DNA of 64,000 bases from contig NZ_JAJNQN010000020.1 of assembly GCF_022227845.1 (NCBI RefSeq), positions 1 to 64,000 on the forward strand, in the 5' to 3' direction. This document shows positions 38,382 to 58,373 of this stretch, one piece after another. The stretch is from Ectothiorhodospira lacustris. GTDB taxonomy: Bacteria; Pseudomonadota; Gammaproteobacteria; Ectothiorhodospirales; Ectothiorhodospiraceae. A model generated the notes under the pieces. That model saw only the letters and a program-made list of their open reading frames with translations, did not search any database and was not told the DNA's origin. Made by a program: the position numbers and the translations under genes. Each line of letters starts with the position of its first letter. The stretch's first letter is position 1.

Positions 38382-39194
38382 TCAGGATTTGTCTTCGGGA
38401 CGCATCACCAGCACCGGCGAGCGGGCGGCGCGGACCACCTCGCGGGCGAAGCTGCCCATGAGTGCCCGCTGCAGGCCGGTTCGCCCGTGGGTGGTCATGG
38501 CGATCACGGCGCCCTTGATGAGGGCGGAATAGTCCACCACCGCCTGGGCCACGTCCTTGCCGTGAAGGACATCCCAGTTGACGGACATGCCGTACAGATC
38601 CGGCACGTGATCGGCCACCCGACGCAGGTAGACCCATTCACCGGAGTCGGCCCCGCCACCCCCGCCGAAAGACGGCTTGAGCACCTGGATCAAACGGATG
38701 TCGGCGCCGATGGCGCGGGCAAAGGAGACGGCCTCCGGCAGCATGGCCTCGGACAGGGGCGAACCATCCAGGCAGACCAGCAGGGTGCGGATGGGGCCGG
38801 TCCAGTCCTCGGCAAACTCCGGCCCGGTGAACAGCAGGGGCCGGTGGGTGTGCCTGACCATGTGACTGGCCACGCTGCCGGCCACGGCCTCCCCCACCAG
38901 GCCGCGGGCATGGGTGGACATGACCACCGGCGAGTCCGGGTCCCGGCCGATGAGTTCCATCACCCCGTCGGTGACCGAGGCATGGGTGATCACTTCCACC
39001 AGGCCATCATTGAGTCCCCGGGCCGCCAGGATACTCTGCAACAGGGCCTTGCGTTCGCCGGCATCCTGGTCCCGGGACACCACTGAGGCCAGACGGACCC
39101 GCAGGCCCAGTTGACCGGCCAGTGACAGCCCCGGCCGCAGGGCCGCCTGGGAGCGGACGCTTGAATCCAGCGGAATGGTGACGGCAGCAGACAT
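38382..39194 (-). CDS. Tandem universal stress protein (UspA-type)
   Basis: The 270-residue protein has two Usp halves. The first (VTIPLDSSVRSQAALRPG; VMSTHARGLVGEAVAGSVASH) is followed by a second (LLVCLDGSPLSEAMLPEAV; IAMTTHGRTGLQRALMGS), with the G-2x-G-9x-G-type nucleotide loop best kept in the second. AAGGAG seven bases upstream supports the ATG at 39194. It sits between livF and etfB in the operon. Its role there is unknown; Usp proteins often bind ATP and affect stress survival. Confidence 0.88.
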   Translation of the reverse strand: MSAAVTIPLDSSVRSQAALRPGLSLAGQLGLRVRLASVVSRDQDAGERKALLQSILAARGLNDGLVEVITHASVTDGVMELIGRDPDSPVVMSTHARGLVGEAVAGSVASHMVRHTHRPLLFTGPEFAEDWTGPIRTLLVCLDGSPLSEAMLPEAVSFARAIGADIRLIQVLKPSFGGGGGADSGEWVYLRRVADHVPDLYGMSVNWDVLHGKDVAQAVVDYSALIKGAVIAMTTHGRTGLQRALMGSFAREVVRAARSPVLVMRPEDKS

Positions 39195-39226
39195 GACATG
39201 GCTCCTTGTTAAGGACGTTGCGCGAC

Positions 39227-40063
<837 letters not shown>

Positions 40064-40106
40064 GGGAACACCGTTTTCCTGTCTGTGGTGGAAGGTTCCG
40101 GGGAGT

Positions 40107-40132
40107 GCCACCCCAGGCAGCACCGGGGTGGC
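40107..40132. other. Stable hairpin between substrate-binding protein and livF
   Basis: GCCACCCC pairs with GGGGTGGC around a 10-base loop. No T-run follows, so it is probably not a terminator. Hairpins at this position often stabilise the upstream mRNA and raise binding-protein expression over ATPase expression. Confidence 0.45.
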
Positions 40133-40142
40133 CGATCACGCA

Positions 40143-41390
40143 CTAGCGGCCGTCCCTGAAACCCTGGGCATCCTTCTCGATTTCGTGCCAGACGATCTCC
40201 TGGAAGGCGTTGCTCCAGTCGGTCAGGGGTTCCCAGGTCTGGCCGTTCCACTGGGAGACACGACCATAACCGCCGCCCTGATGGTCGGCGGCGGTGAGAG
40301 TCACCGGGGGCATCAAACCACGGGCATCGAAGCCATCGATCATCTCAAAGCCGCGCCGCAGGGTGTCACCGGTCAGGGGGGCTCCGAACTCACGAATGGC
40401 CAGGCGGGCGGCCTCTACCGCCACCGCCATGGTGGCCACGCCGATGTTGTAGTAGCTCGAACCCACATTGGCGGCGGAACCGGCACCCAGGCCCGGCTCG
40501 ACCACGTGGGTGACGATGTCCTGGATCACCGCCGGCTCCCGGCCGGAGGCCACCGCCTCGAAGCGCTTGACGCCGTTCATGTGGTTGCCCCCCACGTTGC
40601 GGGCGTCGGTCTCGGACAGCCACACCACGGAGAGGATGTTCTGGGGACGGATGCCGTTGCGAATGGCCTCGCGCACGGACACCTGCTGACCGCCGCCGGC
40701 ACCCCAGATGATCACGTGGTCGGGTCGGTAACGGCGCACATCGGACCAGGTGGCGGACTGTTCGGCGCCCGGGCTGGGATAACCGAAGCTGCGCAGCTGG
40801 AAGCCCTTCTGCTGGGCCAGCTCCTGCAGCACCGGCAACGGTTCACGACCAAAGGGCGAGTCGATGTGTACCAGGGCGATGCGCTTGTTGGTCAGGCCGC
40901 CCTGATGGCGCTCGATGTAGTCCGCCAGCAGCGTGGCCTGGGACCAGTAGGTGGCCATCATGGGAAAGACGAAGGGGAAGGTCTCGCCGTCGGAGGCATC
41001 GCCGCGCCCGTGCAGGGCGGTGATCATCACCACTTCATCCCGCAGCACCCGATTCACCGCCGCCCGGGATACCGGCGTGCTGAAGAAGTCCACCAGCACG
41101 GCGCCCTCGCGCCGGGCCCGGTTGTAGGCCTCCAGACCCCGCTGGGGCTCGTTGGCGGTATCACGGATGATGGTCTCGATGGGGTGACCCTCGACGCCGC
41201 CGGTCTCGTTGATCAGGCGCAGGTAGTCCTGCTGGCCCTGGTTGTACTCGCTGGAGACGAAGGTGTAGACGGCGGTGAAGTCCTGCAACAGGGCGAACTT
41301 GATCGGTTCCTTGTCGGCACTGGCGGTCCCTCCCACCGCCAGGGCCACGGCACCGGCCACCCCGGCCAGCCCTTTGAGCAATGTCTTCAT
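40143..41390 (-). CDS. ABC transporter substrate-binding protein, LivK/Peripla_BP_6-type
   Basis: The 415-residue protein has a signal peptide (LLKGLAGVAGAVALAVGGTASA) and a type I periplasmic binding fold with KFALLQDFTAVYTFVSSEY, INETGGVEGHPIE and RIALVHIDSPFGREP. It belongs to the branched-chain amino acid-type binding proteins, but the family also binds aromatic acids, short-chain acids and other ligands. The surrounding acyl-CoA synthetase genes make a carboxylic acid ligand plausible. The specific substrate cannot be read from sequence. Confidence 0.88.
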   Translation of the reverse strand: MKTLLKGLAGVAGAVALAVGGTASADKEPIKFALLQDFTAVYTFVSSEYNQGQQDYLRLINETGGVEGHPIETIIRDTANEPQRGLEAYNRARREGAVLVDFFSTPVSRAAVNRVLRDEVVMITALHGRGDASDGETFPFVFPMMATYWSQATLLADYIERHQGGLTNKRIALVHIDSPFGREPLPVLQELAQQKGFQLRSFGYPSPGAEQSATWSDVRRYRPDHVIIWGAGGGQQVSVREAIRNGIRPQNILSVVWLSETDARNVGGNHMNGVKRFEAVASGREPAVIQDIVTHVVEPGLGAGSAANVGSSYYNIGVATMAVAVEAARLAIREFGAPLTGDTLRRGFEMIDGFDARGLMPPVTLTAADHQGGGYGRVSQWNGQTWEPLTDWSNAFQEIVWHEIEKDAQGFRDGR

Positions 41391-41438: not shown

Positions 41439-42512
41439 TCAGCTCTGGGTATGACGGAACGGCCAGACCAGGAAGTATTTGCGGATGTTGTCGTAGATCT
41501 TGGCCAGTCCCAGGGGCTCGAACAGAATCACACCGATGATCAGTGCCCCGTAGACCATCAATGGAATGTGCGACAGCAGGTTGAAGGAGATGGGAATCAG
41601 GTCGAACTGGGCCACGAAGGCCAGCAGGTTGGTGAGCACAATGGGCAGCAGCAGGACAAACCCGGCCCCCAGATAGGCGCCGATGACGCTGCCAAGCCCC
41701 CCCACCAGCACCATCGCCACCAGCTGGATGGAGACGTTGAACCCGAACTGCTCCGGGGTCACCGCCTGGTAGTAGCAAAATGCCAGCACCGCACCGGTCA
41801 CGCCGCCCAGGAAGGAGCTGGCGAAGAAGGCCAGCAGCTTGTACCTGAGCGGGTTGACGCCGATCACCGAGGCGGCAAAATCCTTGTCCCGCACCGCCAC
41901 CAGGGCACGCCCGAAGCTGCTGCGCTTGATGTTCATGATCAGCAGCGTCACCACCACCGTCCACAGCAGGGCCGTGTAGTAGAGGGCACCATCGCTCTGC
42001 AGCGGGACGAACAGGAAGGTCACGTCGGGAGTGCTCAGGGTGGCCTGGGCACCGCCGGAGATGGCCGGCACGTTGATGATGGTCCACTCCACCAGGTACT
42101 GCATGGCCAGGGTGGCCATCACCAGGTACAGCCCCTTCACCCGCAGGGCCGCCGCCCCGAACAGGCAACCGATCAGGGCCGCCATCAGGCCGGCACCCAG
42201 CAAGGCCAGTTCGAAGGGCACCCCGGCTCGTGTCAGATGAATGCTGGTATAGGCCCCGATGGCCATCACTGCGGCAAAGCCGAAGTGCAGCTGGCCGGCA
42301 ATGCCCATCAGCAAGGTCAGGGACAGGGCCGCCGCGGTCCAGATCAGCCAGGGCAGCATGTAGCTGGTCAGGTAGAGGTCGGAGAGCAGGAACGGGGCCG
42401 CCAGTGCCAGCAGCAACAGTCCCTGGATGATCCGCCGGTCGGCGGTCACGGGCCAGAGGGCACGCGCCGACTCGTAACGGGTATGGTGAATGCCGGACAG
42501 TCGATAGAACAT
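41439..42512 (-). CDS. livM: ABC transporter permease, LivM-type
   Basis: The 357-residue multi-pass protein has about ten hydrophobic segments and the LivM coupling region SSFGRALVAVRDKDFAASVIG, followed by GVTGAVLAFCYY and MVLVGGLGSVIGAYLGA. It pairs with LivH to form the transmembrane channel. It starts five bases after the livH stop. Confidence 0.93.
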   Translation of the reverse strand: MFYRLSGIHHTRYESARALWPVTADRRIIQGLLLLALAAPFLLSDLYLTSYMLPWLIWTAAALSLTLLMGIAGQLHFGFAAVMAIGAYTSIHLTRAGVPFELALLGAGLMAALIGCLFGAAALRVKGLYLVMATLAMQYLVEWTIINVPAISGGAQATLSTPDVTFLFVPLQSDGALYYTALLWTVVVTLLIMNIKRSSFGRALVAVRDKDFAASVIGVNPLRYKLLAFFASSFLGGVTGAVLAFCYYQAVTPEQFGFNVSIQLVAMVLVGGLGSVIGAYLGAGFVLLLPIVLTNLLAFVAQFDLIPISFNLLSHIPLMVYGALIIGVILFEPLGLAKIYDNIRKYFLVWPFRHTQS

Positions 42513-42517
42513 GGCGC

Positions 42518-43405
42518 TTAGACCCTCTCGATGTCTTCACGGCCGAAGATGCCGTGGGGACGGAACATGATGGTGAGCAGGATGATCAGGGAGGTGACCA
42601 CGTCGCGGGTGCCGCCACCCACCAGCGGGTCCACGTAACCAGGGATCACGCTGCCCAGGATGCCGACGATGAGACCGGCGACGAGAACGCCGTAGATGCT
42701 GTCCAGACCGCCCAGGATGACCACGGCCACGGCCGGGAACAGCAAGGCCGTCAGGGTCCAGTCGACCCCCTGTACCGAGCCCCACATGGCCCCGGCGGCC
42801 ACCGCGGAGATCCCTGCCAGCCCCCAGGAGACGGCCACCGCCCGCTCCACGGAGATGCCCACGGACCAGCTGGAGATGTGGTTGTCGGACACCGCCCGCA
42901 GCTTGGTGCCCAGGCGGGTGCGGAAGAACAGCAGGGACAGGCCCACCATGGCCGCGCCGATGAGGCCGCCCACCAGATACTCCCGGTTGATGAACACGTC
43001 ACCGATGATGATGGGCATCATGTCCAGGCCCAGGTCCAGGCTCTTGGGCGCCGCCCCCAGCAGGCCGGGGCCGATGCCCCGCAACAGGCTCTCCAGACCC
43101 AGGGTGAGCATGACCACCATGATGATGGGCTGACCCACCATCTTGCGCAGCAAGAAGCGCTCGGTGAGCATGCCGAACAGGAACATGCCCACCAGGGCCA
43201 GGAAAACGGCCACCAGAATGGGCGTGCCCAGCAGGCCGGCAAAGATCCACACCAGATAGGCGGCGATCATCACCATGGCCCCCTGGGCCAGGTTGGGCAC
43301 CCCGGAAGACTTGTAGATGAGCACAATGCCCAGGGCCACCAGGCTGTACATGAGCCCGGTCAGCGCCCCGTTGATGGTCAATTCGATTAGAAACTGGAAA
43401 TCCAT
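42518..43405 (-). CDS. livH: ABC transporter permease, LivH-type
   Basis: The 295-residue membrane protein has the LivH pattern: INGALTGLMYSLVALGIVLIYKSSGVPNLAQGAMVM, and the coupling segment LGTKLRAVSDNHISSWSVGI. VVILGGLDSIYGVLVAGLIVG follows near the end. GGAGG eight bases before the ATG supports the start. It follows the acyl-CoA synthetase gene by three bases, so import and CoA activation are probably coupled. Confidence 0.93.
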   Translation of the reverse strand: MDFQFLIELTINGALTGLMYSLVALGIVLIYKSSGVPNLAQGAMVMIAAYLVWIFAGLLGTPILVAVFLALVGMFLFGMLTERFLLRKMVGQPIIMVVMLTLGLESLLRGIGPGLLGAAPKSLDLGLDMMPIIIGDVFINREYLVGGLIGAAMVGLSLLFFRTRLGTKLRAVSDNHISSWSVGISVERAVAVSWGLAGISAVAAGAMWGSVQGVDWTLTALLFPAVAVVILGGLDSIYGVLVAGLIVGILGSVIPGYVDPLVGGGTRDVVTSLIILLTIMFRPHGIFGREDIERV

Positions 43406-43408
43406 GGA

Positions 43409-45388
43409 TCACACCTCCTCCGCCAGCCGGGCACCGACCACGTCCGCCACCGCCAGGTGGCGCTTGAGGATGCCGGACTCGCCGGTTTCGTAACTGATTC
43501 TTGCCTCGAACTCGATGGCGCTGCGGCCGTCGTAGAGGGACTCAATGATGGGGGCGTAATGGGCGTCGATGACCTTGCGCCGCAGCTTGCGGGTTCGGGT
43601 CACCTCGCCGTCGTCCGGGTCGAACTCCTTGTGCAGGTTGACGAAGCGCCGAATCTCCAGGGCATCGGGCAGTACCGCGTTCACATGGGCCACTTCCTTG
43701 CGCACCAGTTCGTAGACCTGAGGCTTCTGGGACAGGTCGGCAAAGGAGGTGTAGGCCACCCCGTTCTCCTCCGCCCAGTGCCCCACCGCGTCGATGTCGA
43801 TGACGATCAGGGCGGCCAGATAGTCACGATCCTTGCCCAGGATGCAGGCATCCTTGATGTAGTGACTGAACTTGAGACGGTTCTCCACGTAGGTGGGGAT
43901 GAACCGCTCGCCGGCCCGGGTATGGACCACCTCGGACACCCGGCCCAGTACCACCAGCTGCCCGTCCTCCTCCAGATAACCCGCATCTCCGGTATGCATC
44001 CAGCCGTCCTGGAGGGTCTCGGCGGTAGCCTCGGGGTTGTTGAAGTAACCATCAAAGATGTTGTCGGAACGCACCAGGATCTCGCCGTCGTCGCTGATCT
44101 TCAGCGCCACCCCCGGGAAAGGCCGCCCCGCAGTGTGCAGGCTGATGGAATCCAGTGGCTGGGCCACGCACAGGGCACAGTTCTCGGTCTGGCCGTAGAA
44201 CTGGCGCAGGTTGAGGCCCAGGGCGCGGAAGAACAGGAACACGTCCTCCCCCATGGCCTCGCCGGCGGTATAGGGTCGCTCCACCCGGGCCAGTCCCAAC
44301 TGATCCTTGAGGGGTCCGAAGATCAGCACTTCCCCCACGGCGCGCCAGAAACGCTCGGCCGCCGTGGGCGCCTGACCGGCCAGCCGACGCCGTTCCAGTT
44401 CCACCGCAAAGGGCATGAAATGGTGATAGAGGCGACGCTTGAGACCGGTGGATTCATTGATGCCCACCTGGATGCGGGTCAGCATGTTGGACCAGGCCCG
44501 GGGCGAACCGAAGTACAGGGTGGGGGCGATTTCCCGCAGATCGTGCAGGGCGGTTTCCTGACGCTCGGGGATGTTGACGCAGAACCGTAATACCAGGGCG
44601 GCACCGATGGTAAAGATGAAGTCACCCACCCAGGCCATGGGCAGGTAGGCCATGTGCACCTCGCCTTCGCGGAAATAGCCGGCCTGCGAGGCATTGCGCA
44701 CCCCCGAGAGGATATGACCATGCTTGAGGGGAATGCCCTTGGGGGCGCCGGTGGTACCCGAGGAATGCAGCAGTACCGCCGTGTCATGGACCGAGGGCCG
44801 GGACTGCAGGTCCTGGGCCAGGTTCGACTCCCGTTCCAGCCGGGCACGCCCCCGGGCCAGCAGATCTCCCAGGGCCAGCGCCCCTCGAGGTTCCTTGTCC
44901 TTGAGCCCCCGGGGATCATCGAACAGGATGTGATCCAGATGGCCGTAGCCGGCAACGCGGATACCCAGCAGCTTGTCCACCTGCTCCTGGTCCTCCACCA
45001 GGGCGCAGCGGATGGACTCCGCCTCCATCTGGGCCTGGATTTCCTGCGGATTGGTGTCCGGATAGGCCGGGGACGGCACGGCCCGCAGGGTCACCGCCGC
45101 CAGCATGCCGAAATACAGTGCCGGCCGGTTGTCACCCACCACCAGGATTCGATCCCCCGGACCCACCCCCAGTGTCTCCAGACCCGCGGCCAGAGCCATG
45201 ACCCGTTCCAGGTAATCCCGCCAGGTATACTCCTGCCAGATGCCCCGGTCCCGCTCCCGCAGGGCGATCTGGTCGGCATGGTCACGGGCATTGTTCACCA
45301 ATTGCCGGATCAGGTGGTCCTTATCCTGCCAGCCGGGGTGCATGGCCCTGGAGGTCTCCAGGTTCTGATGTATCTTTTCAGGCAGCAT
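43409..45388 (-). CDS. AMP-forming acyl-CoA synthetase in liv-type operon
   Basis: The 659-residue adenylating enzyme has an intact P-loop (LLHSSGTTGAPKGIPL), the YGQTEN motif, HTGDAGYLEEDG and GRVSEVVHTRAGERFIP. It resembles long-chain acyl-CoA synthetases of the FadD15/FACS type. The ATG at 45388 overlaps the livG stop by 11 bases. Genes of this kind sit between livG and livH in several proteobacterial liv clusters, which suggests a vectorial system where the imported acid is thioesterified on entry. Substrate unknown. Confidence 0.9.
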   Translation of the reverse strand: MLPEKIHQNLETSRAMHPGWQDKDHLIRQLVNNARDHADQIALRERDRGIWQEYTWRDYLERVMALAAGLETLGVGPGDRILVVGDNRPALYFGMLAAVTLRAVPSPAYPDTNPQEIQAQMEAESIRCALVEDQEQVDKLLGIRVAGYGHLDHILFDDPRGLKDKEPRGALALGDLLARGRARLERESNLAQDLQSRPSVHDTAVLLHSSGTTGAPKGIPLKHGHILSGVRNASQAGYFREGEVHMAYLPMAWVGDFIFTIGAALVLRFCVNIPERQETALHDLREIAPTLYFGSPRAWSNMLTRIQVGINESTGLKRRLYHHFMPFAVELERRRLAGQAPTAAERFWRAVGEVLIFGPLKDQLGLARVERPYTAGEAMGEDVFLFFRALGLNLRQFYGQTENCALCVAQPLDSISLHTAGRPFPGVALKISDDGEILVRSDNIFDGYFNNPEATAETLQDGWMHTGDAGYLEEDGQLVVLGRVSEVVHTRAGERFIPTYVENRLKFSHYIKDACILGKDRDYLAALIVIDIDAVGHWAEENGVAYTSFADLSQKPQVYELVRKEVAHVNAVLPDALEIRRFVNLHKEFDPDDGEVTRTRKLRRKVIDAHYAPIIESLYDGRSAIEFEARISYETGESGILKRHLAVADVVGARLAEEV

Positions 45389-46181
45389 CTTTGACCTTCC
45401 CGATATAGGCCGTGACGACGGCAGGATCATTGATGGCTTCGCGGGTGGGGCCTTCGGCGATCTTCTCGCCGTTGTTGAGCACCACGGCCCGGTTGCAGAT
45501 GGCGGTGACCACGTCCATGTGGTGCTCGATCAGCAGCATGGTGGTGCCCATGGCCTCCCGGGCATCCAGGATGAAGCGCACCATGTATTCCTTTTCCTCT
45601 TGGTTCATGCCGGCCATGGGTTCGTCCAGCACCAGGAAACGGGGCTCGGCACAGAGGGCACGAGCCAGCTCCACCCGCTTCTGCATCCCCAGGGGGATCA
45701 CATCCACGGGCTCGTCCCGCACACTCTCCAGCTGCAGCAGGTCGATGATTTCCTCCACCTTGACCCGGTGCGCCACCTCCTCCTTCTGGGCCCACCACCA
45801 GTAGAACAGGGAGGCCATGACGCTGGGGCGCATGAAGATGTGACGGCCCAGCAGGATGTTGTCCAGCACGCTCAGGCCTCGGAACAGGGCCACGTTCTGA
45901 AAGGTGCGGGCGATGCCCTTCCGGGCGATGCAATGGGGCTTGAGCCCGTTGATGGGTTCACCCATAAATCGGATCCGGCCCTGCTGGGGCGGATAGAAGC
46001 CGGTGATGGCATTGACCAGGGTGGTCTTGCCCGAGCCGTTGGGGCCGACCAGCCCGAAGATCTCTCCCCGGCGTACCGACAGGGAGATGCCCTTGAGTGC
46101 CTGAAGACCGCCGAACCAGCGATTCACCTGGTCGCATTCCAGTACGATGTCCTGGTCGGCGTCATGCTGAGTCTGTGTCAC
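45378..46181 (-). CDS. livG: ABC transporter ATPase, LivG-type
   Basis: The 267-residue ATPase has Walker A GPNGSGKTTL, followed by ITGFYPPQQGRI and a LivG-type RTFQNVALFRGLSVLDN region. The signature motif is altered (VIPLGMQKRVELARAL rather than LSGGQ), as also seen in some homologues in similar clusters. Walker B is FLVLDEPMAGM and the H-loop is LLIEHHMD. It is the partner of LivF. It begins 167 bases after the first operon gene. That gap holds GC-rich sequence without a recognisable promoter. Confidence 0.9.
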   Translation of the reverse strand: MTQTQHDADQDIVLECDQVNRWFGGLQALKGISLSVRRGEIFGLVGPNGSGKTTLVNAITGFYPPQQGRIRFMGEPINGLKPHCIARKGIARTFQNVALFRGLSVLDNILLGRHIFMRPSVMASLFYWWWAQKEEVAHRVKVEEIIDLLQLESVRDEPVDVIPLGMQKRVELARALCAEPRFLVLDEPMAGMNQEEKEYMVRFILDAREAMGTTMLLIEHHMDVVTAICNRAVVLNNGEKIAEGPTREAINDPAVVTAYIGKVKDAA

Positions 46182-46348: not shown

Positions 46349-48043
46349 TCAGGTCGCCGGCGGAGCGTGAATGCCCAGCGCCGCCAGGGCTTCGTCACGA
46401 AGCATGAACTTGAGCGCACGCCCCGTACTGCGGGGAAACGCCTCATAGAGGCGCACGTGCAGGGGAATCTTGAAATGGGCGATCTGACCCTTGCAGAAGT
46501 CCTTGACCGCCGCCTCCGTCAGCGACGTTCCTGCTCCGAGTTCCACGCAGGCGCAGACCACCTCCCCCAGACGGTCGTCGGGAATGCCCACGACCACCGC
46601 ATCCCGGATCTGCGGATGGGTGCGCAGGAAATCCTCCAGTTCCCGGGGATAGATGTTCTCGCCGCCGCGAATGATCATGTCCTTGACCCCGCCGACGATG
46701 CGGCAGTAACCCGCCCCGTCGATCTGCGCCAGGTCGCCGGTATGCAGCCAGCCGGCGGCATCCACCACCCGCCGGCTCAGCTCCGGATCGTCCCAGTACC
46801 CGCGCATGACGTTGTACCCCCGCACGCACAGCTCACCGGTAACCCCTCTGGGGACGATGCGGCCCTCGCTGTCGATGACCTTGGCCTCCACATGGGGACG
46901 GATGGTGCCGACGGTGTTGAGGCGCCGTTCCACCGGGTCGTTCACATCGCTCATGAAGGAGATGGGGGACGATTCGGTCATGCCGTAGCCGATGGTGACC
47001 TGCGCCATGTGCATCAGGCGCATCACCTGATCCATGGTTTCCGGCGGACAGGGGGCACCGGCCATGATGCCGGTGCGCAAGGAAGCGAGGTCAAAATCAG
47101 AGAACCGTTCATGGTCGAGCATGGCCTTGAACATGGCGGGCACCCCGTAGAGGGCGGTGCACCGTTGACCGGCCACGGCCTTGAGGGTATCCAGCGGGTC
47201 GAAGGCCTCGCCGGGATAGACCATGGCGGCCCCATGTCCCAGGCAGGCCATGTTGCCCATCACCATGCCGAAGCAGTGGAACAGGGGGACCGGGATGCAG
47301 ACCCGGTCATCGGCACCCAGGCACAGGCTCTGCCCGACCATGTGGCCGTTGTTGAGGATATTGTGATGGGTCAGGGTGGTGCCGGCGGGCTCGCCGCCCA
47401 TGGCGTTGCTGAACTGGATGTTCACCGGGTCGTCCATCTCCACCCGGGCGGCCATTTCGGCCACCCGGGCCAGGGCCTGCGGGGTACATTCGGCCTGCAT
47501 CAGGCGGGAGAAATTGAGCGTGCCCGGGGTTTCCGCCTCCCCCACACGGATCACTCGCTGCAGTGACGGGATGGCGGCTGCGCTCAGGATGCCGTTTTCA
47601 GCGTCGGCAAGTTCCGGCAACAGTTCCTGTAACATCTGGATGTAGTCGCTGGTCTTGAAGACATCCTGGGTCACCAGTGCCCGTACCTGTACCAAGTTCA
47701 GGAAACGCTGCAGTTCCGCCTTGCGCGCCCCGGGATTGATGTTCACCGAGATCATGCCCAGGCGCGCCGCAGCCAGCTGGGTCAGGGTCCATTCGCTGCG
47801 GTTCATCATCCAGATGGCGATGCGGTCCCCCGGCTCCAGCCCCAGCGCCAGGAAGGCAACGGCCAGCCGGTCCACCGCGGCATCCAGTTCCCGCCAACTC
47901 AGGCACACATCATGGGTGCAATCCACCACTGCCAGGTCCTCCGGCCGGGTGGACGCCTGACGGCGCAGACAGTCACCCACGGTGGTGCCCTGCAGCGGCT
48001 CTGCGCCCGCGCCGTGCACATAACTGTAATCAGGATGGCTCAT
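46349..48043 (-). CDS. Acyl-CoA synthetase homologue with altered catalytic motifs
   Basis: The 564-residue protein is clearly an acyl-CoA synthetase by fold and length: PLFHCFGMVMGN, YGMTESSPISF, GWLHTGDLAQID and KDMIIRGGENIYPRELE. Yet the P-loop, normally TSGTTGxPKG, reads SNAMGGEPAG. The conserved arginine before KDMI (GR) is glycine, and the C-terminal catalytic lysine (TGK) is arginine (STGRALKF). It has no frameshift and a normal ribosome-binding site (GGAGGAAGGAG). It may be a pseudoenzyme or have a changed reaction. It is the first gene of the liv/etf operon under a predicted LiuR-controlled promoter, divergent from liuR. Confidence 0.85.
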   Translation of the reverse strand: MSHPDYSYVHGAGAEPLQGTTVGDCLRRQASTRPEDLAVVDCTHDVCLSWRELDAAVDRLAVAFLALGLEPGDRIAIWMMNRSEWTLTQLAAARLGMISVNINPGARKAELQRFLNLVQVRALVTQDVFKTSDYIQMLQELLPELADAENGILSAAAIPSLQRVIRVGEAETPGTLNFSRLMQAECTPQALARVAEMAARVEMDDPVNIQFSNAMGGEPAGTTLTHHNILNNGHMVGQSLCLGADDRVCIPVPLFHCFGMVMGNMACLGHGAAMVYPGEAFDPLDTLKAVAGQRCTALYGVPAMFKAMLDHERFSDFDLASLRTGIMAGAPCPPETMDQVMRLMHMAQVTIGYGMTESSPISFMSDVNDPVERRLNTVGTIRPHVEAKVIDSEGRIVPRGVTGELCVRGYNVMRGYWDDPELSRRVVDAAGWLHTGDLAQIDGAGYCRIVGGVKDMIIRGGENIYPRELEDFLRTHPQIRDAVVVGIPDDRLGEVVCACVELGAGTSLTEAAVKDFCKGQIAHFKIPLHVRLYEAFPRSTGRALKFMLRDEALAALGIHAPPAT

Positions 48044-48106
48044 GTTCTCCTTCCTCCGGAGCGCCGACGTTCCGAATGATGCCAGTCTGGTTATGAAGTT
48101 ATGGCC

Positions 48107-48135
48107 AATTTATTTACCGTTTACGTCCACGTCAA
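48107..48135 (-). promoter_or_regulatory. Predicted promoter and LiuR box for the liv/etf operon
   Basis: On the reverse strand TTGACG (48130-48135), a 17-base spacer and TAAATT (48107-48112) form a credible sigma-70 promoter. The same TTGACG is the left end of an imperfect LiuR-type palindrome, TTTACGTCCACGTCAA on the forward strand (48120-48135). The regulator would cover the -35 and spacer. The first gene starts 63 bases downstream of the -10. Confidence 0.6.
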
Positions 48136-48217
48136 CTATTTTTTTCCATGTATACACCAGGGTTTCTGTGTGCAGCGCACAAAACCCATGCAGGGCAGAC
48201 ATTGATTGCGTAAAATG

Positions 48218-48231
48218 TTCCGTTAACGGAA
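48218..48231. promoter_or_regulatory. Perfect 14-bp palindrome upstream of liuR
   Basis: TTCCGTTAACGGAA lies about 95 bases before the liuR start in the divergent region. It differs from the LiuR boxes in its core and could be a site for a second regulator or a variant autoregulatory site. Confidence 0.35.
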
Positions 48232-48323
48232 ACCTGCCCGATTCCAGCAGGTCCAAACCCAGGCCTGACCGGCATAGAGCGTCATCACTATCCGGAAGTA
48301 TCGATAGCCAACAGGAAACCACC

Positions 48324-48821
48324 ATGAGCGATCCCCTGCCGACGATTCGGGAACACGACCTCAACGGCACCACCTACACCATTGGAGAACTGGCCAAGGA
48401 ATTCGACATCACCACCCGCGCCATCCGCTTCTACGAAGATGAGGGCCTGATCAGCCCGGTACGCATCGGTTCCAAGCGTCTGTATCGCCGCCGTGACCGG
48501 GCCAGACTCAAACTCATCCTGCGGGGCAAGCGCCTCGGCTTCACCCTGGCGGAGATCCGCGAGACCTTCAATCTGTACGACGAGGCTCATGGCGAGGCCC
48601 ACCAGCTGCGCTATTACCTGTCGGTGCTTGAGGAAAAGCGCCAGCACCTGATCCGCCAGCGGGAAGATCTGGAAGAAACCCTGCGTGAACTGGATCACTC
48701 CTACGCCCATTGCGAGCAACTGCTGGCGCAGCAGGAACAGCACAAGGTGAAGGACCACGGCACTGCCGCCGCGTCCCGTCAGGCGCGTCCCTCACCCGCC
48801 GCCACCCGGATGGAAGACTGA
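48324..48821 (+). CDS. liuR: MerR-family regulator of leucine/isovalerate degradation
   Basis: The 165-residue protein has a MerR-type winged helix (YTIGELAKEFDITTRAIRFYEDEGLISPVRIGSKRLY, residues 17-53), then a dimerising helical region and an Ala/Ser-rich tail. There are no ligand-binding cysteines of the metal type. It sits directly upstream of liuA and matches LiuR, which represses leucine degradation genes in many Proteobacteria. AGGAA precedes the ATG at 48324. LiuR-type palindromes occur near three divergently or downstream-oriented operons in this window. Confidence 0.88.
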   Translation: MSDPLPTIREHDLNGTTYTIGELAKEFDITTRAIRFYEDEGLISPVRIGSKRLYRRRDRARLKLILRGKRLGFTLAEIRETFNLYDEAHGEAHQLRYYLSVLEEKRQHLIRQREDLEETLRELDHSYAHCEQLLAQQEQHKVKDHGTAAASRQARPSPAATRMED

Positions 48822-48961: not shown

Positions 48962-48977
48962 TTGACGTTTACGTCAA
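48962..48977 (+). promoter_or_regulatory. LiuR box upstream of liuA
   Basis: TTGACGTTTACGTCAA is a palindrome apart from its two central bases. Its left half, TTGACG, could be the -35 element of the liu promoter, with a weak -10 near 48983-48990. It lies 46 bases before the liuA start. The rest of 48822-49023 shows nothing else clear. Confidence 0.75.
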
Positions 48978-49023: not shown

Positions 49024-50190
49024 ATGAGCCATTTCCCTACCCTGGACTTTGCCCTGGGCAACGAGATCAACATGCTGCGGGATGCGGTGGCCGAGTTCGC
49101 CGCCGCCGAGATCGCCCCGCGGGCGGCGGATATCGACCGGGAGAACCAGTTCCCCCAGGATCTGTGGCCCAAGTTGGGGGAAATGGGCCTTTTGGGCATC
49201 ACGGTGGGCGAGGAGTACGGCGGTACCGGCATGGGGTACCTGGCGCACATGGTCGCCATGGAGGAGATCTCCCGGGCCTCGGCCTCGGTGGCCCTGTCCT
49301 ACGGCGCCCATTCCAATCTGTGCGTGAACCAAATCAAGCTCAACGGCACCGAGGCGCAAAAGCGCAAGTACCTGCCTAAACTGATGACCGGCGAGCATGT
49401 GGGCGCCCTGGCCATGTCCGAGCCGGGCGCCGGTTCCGACGTGGTCGGCATGCGCCTGCGGGCGCGCAAGGAAGGCGACTGCTACATCCTCAACGGCAAC
49501 AAGATGTGGATCACCAACGGCCCCGAGGCCGGCACCCTGGTGGTCTATGCCAAGACCGACCCCGAAGCCGGTCCTCGGGGCATCACGGCTTTCATCGTGG
49601 AACGGGGCATGGCGGGCTTTTCCACCGCGCAGAAACTGGACAAGCTGGGCATGCGCGGCTCCAACACCTGCGAACTGATTTTTGAAGACTGCGTGATCCC
49701 GGCGGACAACATCCTCGGCCAGGAAGGCGGTGGGGTGAAAGTGCTGATGTCCGGGCTGGACTATGAGCGGGCGGTGCTGGCCGCCGGTCCCCTGGGGATC
49801 ATGGCCGCCTGCATGGACGTGGTCATCCCCTACGTGCATGAACGCAAGCAGTTCGGGCAGGCCATCGGCGAGTTCCAACTCATGCAGGCCAAGCTGGCGG
49901 ACATGTACACCGGCCTCAACGCCTCCCGGGCCTATGTCTATGCCGTGGGCCGGGCCTGCGACCGGGGCGAGACCACCCGCAAGGATGCCGCCGGCGCCAT
50001 CCTCTTTGCCGCCGAAAAGGCCACCTGGATGGCCCTGGAGGCGATCCAGTGCCTGGGCGGTAACGGCTATATCAATGAGTACCCCACCGGGCGCCTGCTG
50101 CGGGATGCCAAGCTCTACGAGATCGGCGCCGGCACCTCGGAGATCCGGCGCATGCTGATCGGTCGCGAACTGTTCAAGGAAACCCGCTGA
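49024..50190 (+). CDS. liuA: Isovaleryl-CoA dehydrogenase
   Basis: LiuA oxidises isovaleryl-CoA to 3-methylcrotonyl-CoA, giving electrons to ETF. The 388-residue protein has the acyl-CoA dehydrogenase pattern: [43 protein letters not shown], and [22 protein letters not shown]. The catalytic glutamate of isovaleryl-CoA dehydrogenases is in [15 protein letters not shown], not in the usual C-terminal position. First gene of the liu operon; its electron acceptor genes (etfAB, ETF-QO) are in the divergent operon. Confidence 0.96.
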
Positions 50191-50247
50191 GCCTGCTTCA
50201 GCCGGGTCACTGTCGGGGATGCCAGCACAGGGGAGTCAGGGACCACC

Positions 50248-51855
<1,608 letters not shown>

Positions 51856-51872
51856 TCGCAAGGAGCCCTTTC

Positions 51873-52676
51873 ATGCCCGACACCTCAGCCCTGACCTGCG
51901 AGATCCGGGACGACATCGCCTGGATCACCCTCAACCGTCCCGAGCGGCACAACGCCTTCGATGACGCCCTGATCCGTCACCTCACCGAGACCCTGCGCCG
52001 GGTGTCGGCGACGCCGGCGGTACGCGCCCTGGTGCTGGCAGGCGCCGGCAAGAGCTTTTCCGCCGGCGCCGACATCGGCTGGATGAAGCGCATGGCCGGC
52101 TACACCGAGGCGGAAAACCTGGCAGATGCACAGGCCCTGGGGGAACTCATGGACACCCTCTATCGCCTGAACCAGCCCACCATCGCCCGGGTCCATGGTG
52201 CCGCCCTGGGCGGCGGCGTGGGCCTGGTGGCCGCCTGCGACCTGGCCCTGGCCACGGAGCAGGCCCATTTCTGCCTCTCGGAGGTCCGCCTGGGCCTGAT
52301 CCCGGCCACCATTTCCCCCTACGTGATTGAGGCCATGGGGGCACGTCAGGCGCGGCGCTACTTCACCACCGCCGAGCGCATTGATGCCCAAGAGGCCATG
52401 CGCATCGGCCTGATCCATCAGGTGCTGGCGGACGAGGCCGCCCTGGATGCACAGATCCTCCAGACCCTGAACCAGATCCGTCGCAACGGCCCCGAGGCCA
52501 TGACCGCCGCCAAGGCCCTGGTCCGGGACGTGAGCCATCGCCCCGTCGACGCTGCCCTGGTGACCGAGACCGCCGGGCGCATCGCACGTATCCGGGCCGG
52601 TCGGGAAGCCCAGGAGGGCCTGGGTGCCTTCCAGGAAAAACGGCAGCCCGCCTGGTGCCCCTCCGAGCCGGCCTGA
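51873..52676 (+). CDS. liuC: Methylglutaconyl-CoA hydratase
   Basis: The 267-residue crotonase-family protein contains GKSFSAGADIGWMKRMAGY, ARVHGAALGGGVGLVAACDLA and LSEVRLGLIPATISPYV. The last is typical of 3-methylglutaconyl-CoA hydratases, which form HMG-CoA. The oxyanion hole residues are in AGAD and GGGVG. It follows liuB after 17 bases. Confidence 0.94.
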   Translation: MPDTSALTCEIRDDIAWITLNRPERHNAFDDALIRHLTETLRRVSATPAVRALVLAGAGKSFSAGADIGWMKRMAGYTEAENLADAQALGELMDTLYRLNQPTIARVHGAALGGGVGLVAACDLALATEQAHFCLSEVRLGLIPATISPYVIEAMGARQARRYFTTAERIDAQEAMRIGLIHQVLADEAALDAQILQTLNQIRRNGPEAMTAAKALVRDVSHRPVDAALVTETAGRIARIRAGREAQEGLGAFQEKRQPAWCPSEPA

Positions 52677-52702
52677 TGGCCCCCAACCGCAGGGAATCGA
52701 GC

Positions 52703-54709
52703 ATGTTCCACAAGATACTGATTGCCAACCGGGGCGAGATCGCCTGCCGCATTGCCCGCACCTGCCGCGAGCTGGGGATTCGTACCGTGGCCGTCTATTC
52801 GGAGGCGGACCGGGAGGCCATGCACGTCAAGGCCTGCGACGAGGCCTGGCCCATCGGCCCGGCACCGGCCCGGGATAGCTACCTGAACATCCCCCGCATC
52901 CTGGAGGCGGCCCGACGCAGCGGCGCCCAGGCGATCCACCCCGGCTATGGGTTTTTGTCCGAGAACGCCGATTTTGCCCGCGCCTGCGACGAGGCCGGCA
53001 TCGTCTTCATCGGTCCCCCGGTGGGGGCCATCGAGGCCATGGGCTCCAAGAGTGCCGCCAAGGCGATCATGGAAGCCGCCGGCGTGCCCCTGGTACCGGG
53101 GTACCACGGCGACGATCAGTCCCCCGCCCTGCTGGCCGACGTGGCCGCCCGGATCGGCTATCCGGTCCTGATCAAGGCCTCCGCCGGTGGCGGCGGCAAG
53201 GGGATGCGACGGGTGGATGATCCGGCCCGGTTCCGCGAGGCCCTGGAAGCGGCCCGGCGCGAGGCCCGCTCCGCCTTCGGCGATGATCGGGTGCTGGTGG
53301 AAAAGTACCTGCTCCAGCCCCGCCACGTGGAAGTCCAGGTCTTTGCGGACAGCCAGGGCCGGGTGGTCCACCTGTTCGAGCGGGACTGCTCGGTGCAGCG
53401 GCGCCATCAGAAGGTCATCGAGGAAGCGCCCGCCCCCGGCCTGGACCAGGACCGTCGGCACCAGCTGGGCGAGGCGGCCATTGCCGCCGCCCGTGCCATC
53501 GGCTACGTGGGCGCCGGCACCGTGGAATTCATCATGGACAGTCGCGGCGAATTCTATTTCATGGAAATGAACACCCGCCTGCAGGTGGAGCACCCGGTCA
53601 CCGAGATGATCACCGGTCAGGACCTGGTGGCCTGGCAGCTCCGGGTGGCCGCCGGCCACCCCCTGCCCTGCGAACAGGCGGACTTGGCCATCCGGGGTCA
53701 CGCCTTCGAGGCCCGCATCTATGCCGAGGACGCAGACCGGGACTTCCTGCCCGCCACCGGCACCATCGGCCACCTGCGGACCCCGCCGCCGAGCCGGCAC
53801 GTGCGCATCGATACCGGCGTACAGGAAGGTGACGAGATCAGCGTCCACTATGACCCCATGATCGCCAAGCTGGTGGTCTGGGATCAGGACCGGACCACCG
53901 CCCTGCGCCGCCTGGCGACGGCCCTGGAATCCTTCATCGTCGTCGGCACCACCACCAATGTGGGTTTTTTGTCCCGACTGGCCCGCCACCCGGCCTTTGC
54001 CGAGGCACGGATCGATACCGGCTTCATCGACATCCACCGGGCCGACCTGCTGCCGCCGGTACCACCGATCACTGACGGACAGCTTTGTGCCGCCACCCTG
54101 CATGAGCTGCTGCGGGTGGAACAGGCAGCCCGGGCACGGGCGCAGCAGTCCGGCGATACCACCTCTCCCTGGCATGCCACCACCGGCTGGCGCCTGAACA
54201 CCGACAGCCATCGCTCCCTGCATTTTTTCGACTCGGCTCAGGACCGGGATCTCAAGGTCGCGGCCCATTATCTGGATACGGGCTTTCGCCTGGACCTGGG
54301 GCATGGCGAACACTGGGTCCAGGGCCATCTGCAGCCCGACGGTCGCCTGCGTATGCAGGTGGACGGCGTGCATCAGGATGCCTGGGTGCTGCAGGAGGGG
54401 CGCCGCCTCAGTGTCTTCATGGCAGGTCACACCCGTGACCTGGTGATCCATGATCCCCTGGCGGCAGGCATGGACGACGAGATCCAGGAAGGCAGCCTGA
54501 TGGCCCCCATGCCGGGCCTGGTGGTCGCCGTCCATGTGAAGGAAGGTGACGTGGTGCAGGAAGGCGATCCCCTCATGGTGCTGGAGGCCATGAAGATGGA
54601 GTATCAGATCAGCGCCCTCACCGACGGCATCGTCGACAGCGTGAACTACAGTGAAGGCGAACAGGTGACCGAAGGCGCCCAGCTCCTGACCATTCGCCAG
54701 GGAGAATGA
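52703..54709 (+). CDS. liuD: Methylcrotonyl-CoA carboxylase, alpha (biotin carboxylase/carrier) subunit
   Basis: The 668-residue protein has a biotin carboxylase N-terminus: FHKILIANRGEIACRIARTC, ATP-grasp KASAGGGGKGMRRV, and FMEMNTRLQVEHPVTEM. A linker follows, then a C-terminal biotinyl domain with the attachment lysine in LEAMKMEYQI. I chose the ATG at 52703, which begins the family N-terminus; the frame is open 16 codons further upstream. It acts with LiuB. Confidence 0.96.
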   Translation: MFHKILIANRGEIACRIARTCRELGIRTVAVYSEADREAMHVKACDEAWPIGPAPARDSYLNIPRILEAARRSGAQAIHPGYGFLSENADFARACDEAGIVFIGPPVGAIEAMGSKSAAKAIMEAAGVPLVPGYHGDDQSPALLADVAARIGYPVLIKASAGGGGKGMRRVDDPARFREALEAARREARSAFGDDRVLVEKYLLQPRHVEVQVFADSQGRVVHLFERDCSVQRRHQKVIEEAPAPGLDQDRRHQLGEAAIAAARAIGYVGAGTVEFIMDSRGEFYFMEMNTRLQVEHPVTEMITGQDLVAWQLRVAAGHPLPCEQADLAIRGHAFEARIYAEDADRDFLPATGTIGHLRTPPPSRHVRIDTGVQEGDEISVHYDPMIAKLVVWDQDRTTALRRLATALESFIVVGTTTNVGFLSRLARHPAFAEARIDTGFIDIHRADLLPPVPPITDGQLCAATLHELLRVEQAARARAQQSGDTTSPWHATTGWRLNTDSHRSLHFFDSAQDRDLKVAAHYLDTGFRLDLGHGEHWVQGHLQPDGRLRMQVDGVHQDAWVLQEGRRLSVFMAGHTRDLVIHDPLAAGMDDEIQEGSLMAPMPGLVVAVHVKEGDVVQEGDPLMVLEAMKMEYQISALTDGIVDSVNYSEGEQVTEGAQLLTIRQGE

Positions 54710-54712
54710 GCC

Positions 54713-55186
54713 ATGGCACACATCACGACCCCCTATTACCTGGAAGACCTGAGTCCCGGCATGTGCTTCGAGACCGAGGCCACCACCATGACCGAAGCGG
54801 ACATCATCCGCTTCGGCCGGGAATTCGACCCCCAGCCCCACCACGTGGACCCGGAGGCCGCCCGTCACACCCTGTTCGGCGGTCTGGTGGCCAGTGGCTG
54901 GCACACCATCGGCGTCATGACCGCCCTGGCGGTGCGCTCCGGCATGCCCCTGGCGGAAGGTCAGATCGGCGTGGGCGTGGAAGGGATCCGCTTCGCCAAG
55001 CCGGTTCGCCCCGGTGACCGCATCCGGCTGCACCTGGAGATTCTGGAGGCCCGCCCGCGGGAATCCCGGCCCGGCTGGGGGGTGGTGCGGGTGCAGTGGA
55101 CCGGTATCAACCAACATGACGAAGTGGTGGTCGAACTCCAGCCCAGTGTGCTGGTGCGCGCCCGCGACGGGGAGATCGCCGGATGA
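54713..55186 (+). CDS. MaoC-type hotdog hydratase in the liu operon
   Basis: The 157-residue hotdog-fold protein has the MaoC pattern: YYLEDLSPGMCFETEATTMTEADIIRFGREFDPQPHHVD, with the aspartate and histidine of the hydratase site, and LFGGLVASGWHTIGVM. It starts three bases after liuD and overlaps liuE by ATGA. It is not part of the classical liuRABCDE set. It may hydrate an enoyl-CoA intermediate or one derived from the imported acid. Confidence 0.88.
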   Translation: MAHITTPYYLEDLSPGMCFETEATTMTEADIIRFGREFDPQPHHVDPEAARHTLFGGLVASGWHTIGVMTALAVRSGMPLAEGQIGVGVEGIRFAKPVRPGDRIRLHLEILEARPRESRPGWGVVRVQWTGINQHDEVVVELQPSVLVRARDGEIAG

Positions 55187-56091
55187 ACCTGCCCGGATCT
55201 TCCGTGCGTCTGGTGGAGGTCGGCCCCCGGGACGGTCTGCAGAACGAACCGGGCACCATTCCCACGGCCGTCAAATTGGGTCTTATCGAGCGCCTGGCCG
55301 ACACGGGCCTGACCTGGATCGAGGCCACCGCCTTCGTTTCCCCAAAATGGGTGCCCCAGATGGCGGACCATGGAGAGATCATGACCGTCCTGGCGCCCCG
55401 ACCCGGGGTGCGCTATCCGGTGCTCACGCCTAACCTCAAGGGCCTGGAGGCCGCCGTGGCCGCGGGCGCCAGGGACGTTGCGGTCTTTGCCGCGGCCTCG
55501 GAAAGCTTTTCCCGCAAGAACATCAACTGCGGCATCGACGACAGTCTGGACCGTTTTGCCCCGCTGATGGAACGGGCCAGGGCGCTGGACATCCCGGTAC
55601 GGGGCTATGTCTCCTGCACCCTGGGCTGTCCCTACGAAGGCGAGATCCCGCCGGAGGCCGTAGCCCGGGTAGCGGCACGACTTCATGCCATGGGCTGCCA
55701 TGAGATCTCCCTGGGAGACACCATCGGCACCGGTACGCCCCTCAAGGCCCGGCGCATGGTGGAGCGGGTGGCCGAGGTCGTGCCCATGGCACAACTGGCG
55801 GCCCATTTCCATGACACCTACGGCCAGGCCCTGGCCAATCTCTATGCCGTCATGGAACTGGGCATCCGCACCATCGACACCTCGGTGGCGGGCCTGGGGG
55901 GCTGTCCCTATGCCCGGGGCGCCTCGGGCAACGTGGCCACCGAAGACGTGGTCTACATGCTGCACGGCATGGGTATCGACACCGGCGTGGACCTGGCGGC
56001 CCTGGTGGAAACAGCCCACTGGATCTGCGGACAGTTGGGGCGGCCCGTGAACTCGCGGGTGGCCCGGGCCATGGCGCCTTGTGATACCTGA
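55183..56091 (+). CDS. liuE: Hydroxymethylglutaryl-CoA lyase
   Basis: HMG-CoA lyase splits HMG-CoA to acetyl-CoA and acetoacetate, the end of leucine degradation. The 302-residue TIM-barrel protein has VRLVEVGPRDGLQNEP, VSCTLGCPYEGE, HFHDTYGQALAN, and the C-terminal GLGGCPYARGASGNVATED with the active-site cysteine. It is coupled to the MaoC gene by ATGA. Acetoacetate can then be used by the nearby acetoacetyl-CoA synthetase. Confidence 0.96.
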   Translation: MNLPGSSVRLVEVGPRDGLQNEPGTIPTAVKLGLIERLADTGLTWIEATAFVSPKWVPQMADHGEIMTVLAPRPGVRYPVLTPNLKGLEAAVAAGARDVAVFAAASESFSRKNINCGIDDSLDRFAPLMERARALDIPVRGYVSCTLGCPYEGEIPPEAVARVAARLHAMGCHEISLGDTIGTGTPLKARRMVERVAEVVPMAQLAAHFHDTYGQALANLYAVMELGIRTIDTSVAGLGGCPYARGASGNVATEDVVYMLHGMGIDTGVDLAALVETAHWICGQLGRPVNSRVARAMAPCDT

Positions 56092-58344: not shown

Positions 58345-58373
58345 AAACTAGATTACGTTTACGCTAACGTCAA
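58345..58373 (-). promoter_or_regulatory. LiuR box overlapping the porin promoter
   Basis: TTTACGCTAACGTCAA (58358-58373) is an imperfect LiuR palindrome. On the reverse strand its TTGACG could be the porin -35, with TAGTTT (58345-58350) at 17-base spacing as a weak -10. Confidence 0.55.

Follow-up and report, generated by a model that had tools for sequence, protein, structure and literature searches.

An acyl-CoA ligase carries out two half-reactions in a single active site, and a locus of Ectothiorhodospira lacustris raises the question of what such a protein may do once the residues expected to serve the first of them are gone. The locus lies in a stretch of 64,000 nucleotides (contig NZ_JAJNQN010000020.1, positions 1 to 64,000; hereafter the window), where an intact open reading frame at 46349-48043 on the minus strand encodes a protein of 564 amino acids, here called psACS, in which three motifs of ordinary acyl-CoA synthetases are altered. 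Our preferred answer, tentative and put at somewhat less than an even chance, is that psACS is a conserved, adenylation-dead homologue that would serve as the companion of ACSL, an acyl-CoA synthetase of the same operon, taking activated acyl groups and completing or channelling the thioester in the manner of PtmA2. The protein and its altered motifs are as follows.

46349..48043, minus strand: psACS, an ANL-superfamily (PRK12583-like) protein of 564 amino acids without the canonical P-loop, A8 arginine and A10 lysine
47381..47410, minus strand: altered P-loop (motif A3), residues 212-221, SNAMGGEPAG, seen in the sequence; the lysine is lost in 15 of 15 variants
46682..46693, minus strand: altered A8 entry, residues 451-454, GGVK where GRxK is canonical, seen in the sequence and by comparison
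46406..46435, minus strand: altered A10 motif, residues 537-546, PRSTGRALKF; the canonical PMTVTGKIQKF is one residue longer

An ANL protein with an altered ATP site

Matches to Pfam AMP-binding (PF00501, 291.9 bits) and AMP-binding_C (PF13193, 52.8 bits), both above the cut-offs, place psACS in the ANL superfamily with its two-domain AMP-binding fold. The best curated family is the fatty acid CoA ligase PRK12583 (NF009233), matched at 721.9 bits over residues 5-557; this falls below the family cut-off of 832 bits, and psACS is not a member by that measure. It shares with the family a full-length match, motifs A4, A5 and A7 and the thiolation loop, whereas the P-loop, the A8 arginine and the A10 lysine are missing. 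A sequence-only reading of this DNA had pointed to SNAMGGEPAG in place of the P-loop, GG for GR and TGR for TGK, and all three are present: residues 450-455 read VGGVKD, with Gly-Gly at the Gly-Arg site of A8, and the C-terminal FPRSTGRALKF has, in addition, lost one residue relative to the FPMTVTGKIQKF of its relatives. The same reading took the other motifs and the frame to be intact, as indeed they are, with HCFG, YGMTESSP, TGD and RGGENIYP all in place.

The alterations are shared by a clade. An orthologue of at least 70% identity occurs in 7 of 10 genomes of the genus, the window's own included, and carries the altered motifs in all seven; the named orthologues, at 70-88% identity, are those of E. 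magna, E. shaposhnikovii, E. marina, E. mobilis and E. haloalkaliphila. Altogether there are 15 distinct variants, seven from Ectothiorhodospira, two from metagenome-assembled genomes (MAGs) of Ectothiorhodospiraceae, two from Marichromatium, three from Paenalcaligenes and one from another Alcaligenaceae MAG. They derive from a scan of named genomes that gave 16 loci, from which L053 and L054 (22% identity) were dropped and in which five duplicate records were counted once; L137 was excluded as the same protein as L043, and the proteins of L046 (Sphingobium) and of genome G034 (L016, 40% identity) are canonical. A profile of the clade, run against 398 genomes of the phylum at E <= 1e-150, matched 68 proteins besides the window's own, all of which retain TSGTTGxPK and the A8 arginine (the C-terminal end of L128 is missing). 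Searches of the class (E <= 1e-230), with hits in 8 of 369 genomes, and of G057's family (E <= 1e-240), with hits in 3 of 399, added seven canonical proteins and no further variant lineage, these being overlapping draws at strict thresholds; the eight genomes of the class are the window's own, four new ones, two met before and G785 (the same record as L043). In a search of the order variants were confined to the genus (7 of 47 genomes). Together with L046 and L016 these 68 and 7 proteins make up a canonical control set of 77, and the canonical relatives sampled are 40-55% identical to psACS. In a tree of the 92 proteins the 15 variants stand on one side of a single branch with SH-aLRT support of 100; the method was a quick one, there are several long rows on the canonical side, and a letter-composition warning applies to the rows from Alcaligenaceae and Marichromatium.

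The glycine (214), second threonine (216) and lysine (220) of the P-loop pattern [ST]SGTTGxPKG are found in 77 of 77 canonical proteins and in none of the variants. The A8 arginine, likewise present in 77 of 77, is replaced by glycine in eleven variants and by asparagine in four. The A10 lysine occurs in 99% of the 77, one of which ends short of the motif; the variants have arginine (10), serine (3), glycine (1) or asparagine (1) there, the non-basic residues being the glycine of L043 and the serine or asparagine of the Alcaligenaceae. All three residues are absent together in every variant, and every variant keeps HCFG, YG.TE, GD, the A8 lysine K454 and RGGEN, that is, A4, A5, A7 and the thiolation loop, so that the acyl, adenine/ribose and CoA sides retain their motifs. 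The Alcaligenaceae proteins are the most altered: they have SSALGTFAAP or SSASGTQAAP as the P-loop, replace GR by GN and lack TGK altogether. Among 123 positions with at least 95% identity in the 77 canonical relatives, 85 are retained in all 15 variants and 12 are lost in at least 80% of them: 212, 214, 216 and 220 in the P-loop, 452 (the A8 arginine), 539, 542 and 544 in A10, and 106, 201, 255 and 303 elsewhere. Eight of the 12 thus fall within the 13 invariant positions of the P-loop, A8 arginine and A10 (hypergeometric p ~5e-7, the 13 being taken from known ANL motifs but chosen after the changes had been seen). The replacements S212, A214, G216 and A220 are themselves invariant across the clade, so the P-loop does not appear merely to have been released from constraint. 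The changes at 106, 201, 255 and 303 are, respectively, from tyrosine to alanine, valine or leucine, from leucine mostly to valine, from tyrosine mostly to phenylalanine, and from threonine to alanine.

There is next to no chance that these changes stem from sequencing error or from an ordinary ligase gene that has lately begun to decay in this strain. Canonical residues in close relatives, which would have pointed that way, were looked for and not encountered; rather, the losses are conserved, being common to six of six same-genus orthologues and eight of eight further members of the clade, with frames intact, and this rules the explanation out. Several replacements are, moreover, clade-wide invariants, and the ratio of nonsynonymous to synonymous substitution (dN/dS), taken pairwise against the six orthologues, is well under 1, at 0.17-0.30 for psACS (0.10-0.24 for ACSL, 0.02-0.24 for the Liv genes of the operon): psACS is under purifying selection. 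Decay could appeal to the fact that psACS evolves faster than its operon neighbours.

Published mutants show that the lost sites are important to overall activity. Excerpts of a review (PMC8388817) give, for 4-chlorobenzoate:CoA ligase, drops in activity of 2,000-fold, 1,000-fold and 4-fold on mutation of the P-loop residues Thr161, Gly163 and Lys169 and of 100-fold on mutation of the A8 residue Arg400, and state that the A10 lysine touches the alpha-phosphate in the adenylation conformation; in FadD13, K172A raises the Km for ATP about 10-fold and K487A removes 96% of the activity (excerpts of PMC2793005). The three lost motifs serve adenylation, and what remains would suit the binding of acyl-AMP, AMP or CoA; psACS is accordingly predicted to lack adenylation activity, as PtmA2 does. 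The same mutants bear on a different possibility, namely that psACS is a ligase of altered or residual activity: its activation of a carboxylate might be slow or draw on a different phosphate donor, or it might pass CoA or acyl groups from one to another of further partners. The retained A5 magnesium-binding glutamate and A7 aspartate, the basic arginine at the A10 site of 10 of the 15 variants and the small weight of the P-loop lysine in one enzyme (only 4-fold for Lys169, excerpts of PMC8388817) would all accommodate it. We nevertheless consider it improbable, given that in 4-chlorobenzoate:CoA ligase one substitution lowers activity about 100- to 2,000-fold at several of these sites (PMC8388817, in part), that P-loop, A8 arginine and A10 lysine are gone together and that TG(K/R) is wholly missing from the Alcaligenaceae branch.

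The fold of psACS is intact in an AlphaFold2 (AF2) model built from 15 rows (pLDDT 87.9, pTM 0.89). The model superposes on 4-coumarate:CoA ligase with AMP and CoA (5bsr) with a Z score of 47.5 and a root-mean-square deviation of 2.2 over 514 residues, and the 50 PDB matches listed are all ANL proteins by title. 4-Coumarate:CoA ligase (5bsr, 5bst) and feruloyl-CoA synthetase (8wev) have the same predicted fold over both domains at 28-31% identity; unlike psACS, the feruloyl-CoA synthetase structures (8weu/8wev) have P-loop, A8 arginine and A10 lysine intact. A PADLOC scan found nothing.

The proposed partner ligase and the importer cassette

Downstream of psACS lies a cassette for a Liv-type ABC importer with ACSL in its midst.

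45378..46181, minus strand: LivG-like ABC ATPase of the cassette
43409..45430, minus strand: ACSL, FadD11-like acyl-CoA synthetase (its best NCBIfam match, under the cut-off), the proposed partner
42518..43405, minus strand: LivH-like permease, in a conserved place
41439..42512, minus strand: LivM-like permease, in a conserved place
40143..41390, minus strand: LivK-like periplasmic binding protein
39227..40123, minus strand: LivF-like ABC ATPase

The LivH-like and LivM-like labels are ones we assume from gene order. On the minus strand of the window the order runs psACS, LivG, ACSL, LivH, LivM, LivK, LivF, a double universal stress protein (Usp) and ETF genes. No terminator-like site was found in the 167 bp between psACS and LivG, and psACS and the Liv genes would form one transcript. 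That psACS heads a transport operon, as the sequence-only reading proposed, holds as gene order at all 15 variant loci (the window and 14 others), where psACS-LivG-ACSL-LivH is constant; LivM-LivK-LivF follows in 14 of them, the contig of L049 ending inside LivH. The cassette genes are absent at two canonical loci with long flanks (L046, L061). Within the genus seven genomes have both psACS and ACSL, and G001, G002 and G005 have no psACS and no ACSL above 28% identity. In the Alcaligenaceae loci L047 and L051 the cassette sits beside unrelated genes, with ArgJ as upstream neighbour and, further upstream in L047, thiamine, aminotransferase and MarR genes; because of this the seven genes look like a unit, and the neighbours at these two loci give no clue to the substrate. 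Such steady neighbours, a complete-looking ligase and a nutrient importer, suggest that psACS serves as a dedicated helper and is no ordinary enzyme. A gene for a universal stress protein of two domains (38382-39230) adjoins the cassette in both Ectothiorhodospira and Marichromatium; in a distant operon of G500, a Usp gene (L162:6444-7364) stands directly before ACSL.

A precedent is the pair PtmA1/PtmA2, two ANL proteins whose half-reactions are reported as separated (PMC6594144, in part). PtmA2 (PDB 5upq), a non-adenylating acyl-CoA ligase of platensimycin biosynthesis, is likewise an ANL protein paired with a second one, and the feature that the partner is encoded nearby is found for psACS too, ACSL being present at 15 of 15 loci. 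The sequence matches of psACS include its chain 5upq_A, at a distance and best over residues 195-550; a search of PDB sequences with the P-loop region did not have PtmA2 among its matches. psACS keeps the thiolation-side residues that a thioesterification of the PtmA2 type, in which acyl-AMP reacts with CoA, would use. It differs from PtmA2 in its setting, that of an importer and catabolic genes rather than a natural-product cluster, and in having a partner that looks complete in 11 of 15 loci. A library of open-access papers, searched for the operon and for non-adenylating ANL proteins, gave nothing specific beyond mentions of PtmA1/PtmA2.

In the mechanism that we tentatively prefer, psACS would be unable to make acyl-AMP from ATP at a useful rate and would still bind acyl-AMP, AMP or CoA; ACSL would activate the acyl group after uptake, and psACS would accept it and complete or channel thioester formation, like PtmA2 of the platensimycin pathway. 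The companion role is proposed because of the linkage to ACSL and the importer and because of a parallel case among PaaK-like proteins, described below. Several observations weigh against this mechanism. ACSL in the window has an intact P-loop (SSGTTGAPKG), A8 arginine and C-terminal (A10) lysine, and these are present in 29 of 29 ACSLs compared, 15 with psACS and 14 without; the A8 glycine is present in every one of the 14 ACSLs without psACS and also in 11 of the 15 with it, the window included, so that most psACS-linked ACSLs look able to finish the reaction alone. The lost A8 arginine contacts the AMP ribose, and its absence would weaken the binding of acyl-AMP as well. psACS is constrained but fast, its dN being 1.5-3.3 times that of ACSL and about equal to that of the neighbouring LiuR-like gene. 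G590 and G696 each have two ACSL-Liv operons, and the sequence read there, to about 12 kb beyond the second one, contains no ANL gene besides ACSL. Finally, the model of psACS adopts the thioester-forming domain arrangement in prediction, but this was dropped as evidence since the model of the canonical Sphingobium control L046, made with the same 15 rows, does likewise, lying at 2.5-3.6 Å from 5bst, 5bsr and CahJ entries and at 11.1 Å from the ATP-bound 5bsm.

Much of this fits a different role, in which psACS is a non-catalytic pseudoenzyme that binds acyl-CoA, AMP or CoA and, catalysing nothing itself, couples the Liv-type importer to ACSL (vectorial acylation), be it as a scaffold, a sensor or an allosteric subunit. 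We regard it as a real possibility, if one rated well short of an even chance. With the ATP motifs of ACSL in 15 of 15 loci and the A8 glycine in 11 of 15, a second catalyst would be unneeded in most lineages; the A10 residue of psACS is not always basic, psACS evolves faster than its operon neighbours, and the presence of a second P-loop-less ANL family at operons of this type fits a role in structure or sensing. Yet RGGEN, the A5 threonine and glutamate and the A7 aspartate are held in 15 of 15 variants, more strictly than simple binding might require, and the ACSLs of four Alcaligenaceae fit a hand-over better. In these four (L047, L048, L049, L051) the A8 glycine is lysine (3) or arginine (1), and they share their loci with the most altered psACS proteins; the pantetheine tunnel interacts with A8 (excerpts of the review PMC8388817). 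This complementary loss would favour hand-over from ACSL to psACS in the Alcaligenaceae branch and says nothing for the window. A scan for positions separating the 15 ACSLs with psACS from the 14 without gave 12 scattered changes outside the core motifs, and a search for a thioesterification defect found no core-motif loss in psACS-linked ACSLs other than that glycine in the four Alcaligenaceae, thioesterification competence being something that motifs alone do not reveal. Because the thiolation-side residues of psACS are always kept, and because of the A8 glycine loss in the Alcaligenaceae ACSLs, we place thioester completion slightly ahead of sensing or scaffolding. The sequence-only reading had offered a pseudoenzyme, a binding protein or a ligase of altered chemistry; as a class of explanation this stands, with adenylation the step affected. 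The motifs of ACSL and the second P-loop-less ANL family lay beyond what that reading could see.

A PaaK-like protein without the P-loop

A search for ACSL in 274 genomes of the class (E <= 1e-150) found it in 13, the window's own included; of the 12 other genomes, all but G693 were read over long stretches. Six of the operons are complete through LivF, after which comes a PaaK-like ANL protein with a length of about 420 amino acids (L162, L164, L166, L167, L168, L170); three others run off the contig before LivF (L163, L165, L169). In G590 (L160, L213) and G696 (L161, L214) the operons are in tandem, with ACSLs about 51-54% identical to that of the window, and LivF of the second operon was not seen. 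The PaaK-like proteins have SPGPI where PaaK has SSGTT (L170 aligned to 2y4o and 2y27), and the five scanned against NCBIfam fall far under both PaaK cut-offs.

A profile of the six, run against 180 genomes of the phylum at E <= 1e-90, found 16 more (L197-L212), of which 14 adjoin an ACSL-Liv operon; 13 of these are co-directional with it, and L198 is divergent. These 14 of 16 are the unbiased figure for linkage, the first six having been found through ACSL; over all 22 proteins, 20 lie in or beside such an operon and the P-loop is lost in every one. LivK was not detected in L204, L205 and L210, and no ACSL-Liv operon surrounds the P-loop-less genes of L203 and L208 in the sequence read. Throughout the 22 the serine, proline, glycine and isoleucine of the loop are invariant and its fourth position is proline in 21; the A8 arginine is kept, the A5 glutamate is aspartate in 20 and the A10 lysine is present in 16. 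The family, which occurs next to ACSL-Liv operons in many Pseudomonadota, mostly has Y-A/G-T-A-D for YGxTE.

The PaaK-like proteins resemble psACS in being companions of an ACSL-Liv operon without a P-loop and differ from it in belonging to another ANL subfamily, in their length of about 420 amino acids, in their usual place after LivF and in having the A8 arginine. No PaaK-like gene occurs in the stretches of the 15 psACS loci, nor at E <= 1e-90 in the window's own genome. Next to this type of operon, then, the ATP-phosphate loop has gone from members of two different ANL subfamilies, a parallel loss and not orthology with psACS; chance or decay is an unlikely account of psACS for this reason. 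A wider proposal would be that Liv importers linked to ACSL use a split acyl-CoA ligase, in which one ANL protein would adenylate and another, lacking the ATP-phosphate site, would receive the activated acyl group; it would have arisen at least twice by P-loop loss, once in a PRK12583-like and once in a PaaK-like protein, as a general machine for uptake and activation. The division of labour would be nearly complete in the Alcaligenaceae, because ACSL there has also lost the A8 glycine. We hold this wider proposal to be rather unlikely; if true, it would span the PRK12583-like proteins of Ectothiorhodospira, Marichromatium and Alcaligenaceae and the PaaK-like proteins of other Pseudomonadota.

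Regulation, likely substrate and meaning

On its other side psACS faces a regulator and a block of catabolic genes.

48042..48821, plus strand: MerR-family regulator (LiuR-like), divergent to psACS, its true start probably inside the open reading frame
48120..48135, no strand: palindrome TTTACGTCCACGTCAA between psACS and the divergent MerR/LiuR-like gene
49024..56091, plus strand: liu (leucine/isovalerate) catabolic genes LiuA-B-C-D, a MaoC-like open reading frame and LiuE, a conserved neighbourhood

LiuA belongs to the acyl-CoA dehydrogenase family; the other liu names we presume from gene order. At each of the 9 loci where the MerR gene is divergent to psACS, the stretch separating the two genes contains the palindrome, a putative LiuR box, as TTTACGTnnACGTCAA; it was not found in the upstream stretches of four Alcaligenaceae and two MAG loci. 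Similar palindromes stand in the window before liuA (48962-48977) and before an acetoacetate-CoA ligase gene (58358-58373), and a scan of the window with at most two mismatches gave 10 strand matches at 5 overlapping or separate places where 0.04 would be expected. Excerpts of PMC3223726 and PMC5343134 describe LiuR, a protein of the MerR family, as repressing the use of branched-chain amino acids, and an 'ILV box' is named, without its sequence, in an excerpt of PMC7238569. In the purple bacteria the cassette thus probably feeds the liu pathway, and its substrate would probably be a branched-chain or short carboxylate that enters this adjacent pathway. Around the canonical PRK12583 relatives (36 loci, mostly with about 1.5 kb of flank) liu-type genes are nearby in a minority, LiuB being the most frequent at 5 of 36. 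The open reading frame at 54713-55186, putatively MaoC-like, has no NCBIfam match at E <= 1e-30, and its place between LiuD and LiuE is conserved (at least 68%) in eight other loci.

For annotation, the consequence is that both companions, psACS and its PaaK-like counterpart, are easily mistaken for active ligases from their Pfam and NCBIfam matches. For the family, psACS would mark a clade that lost the ATP step and retained the rest since before the branches of Ectothiorhodospira, Marichromatium and Alcaligenaceae parted. The clade is thereby a ready test of whether the half-reactions of acyl-CoA ligases can be split in primary metabolism, as has been reported of one antibiotic pathway.

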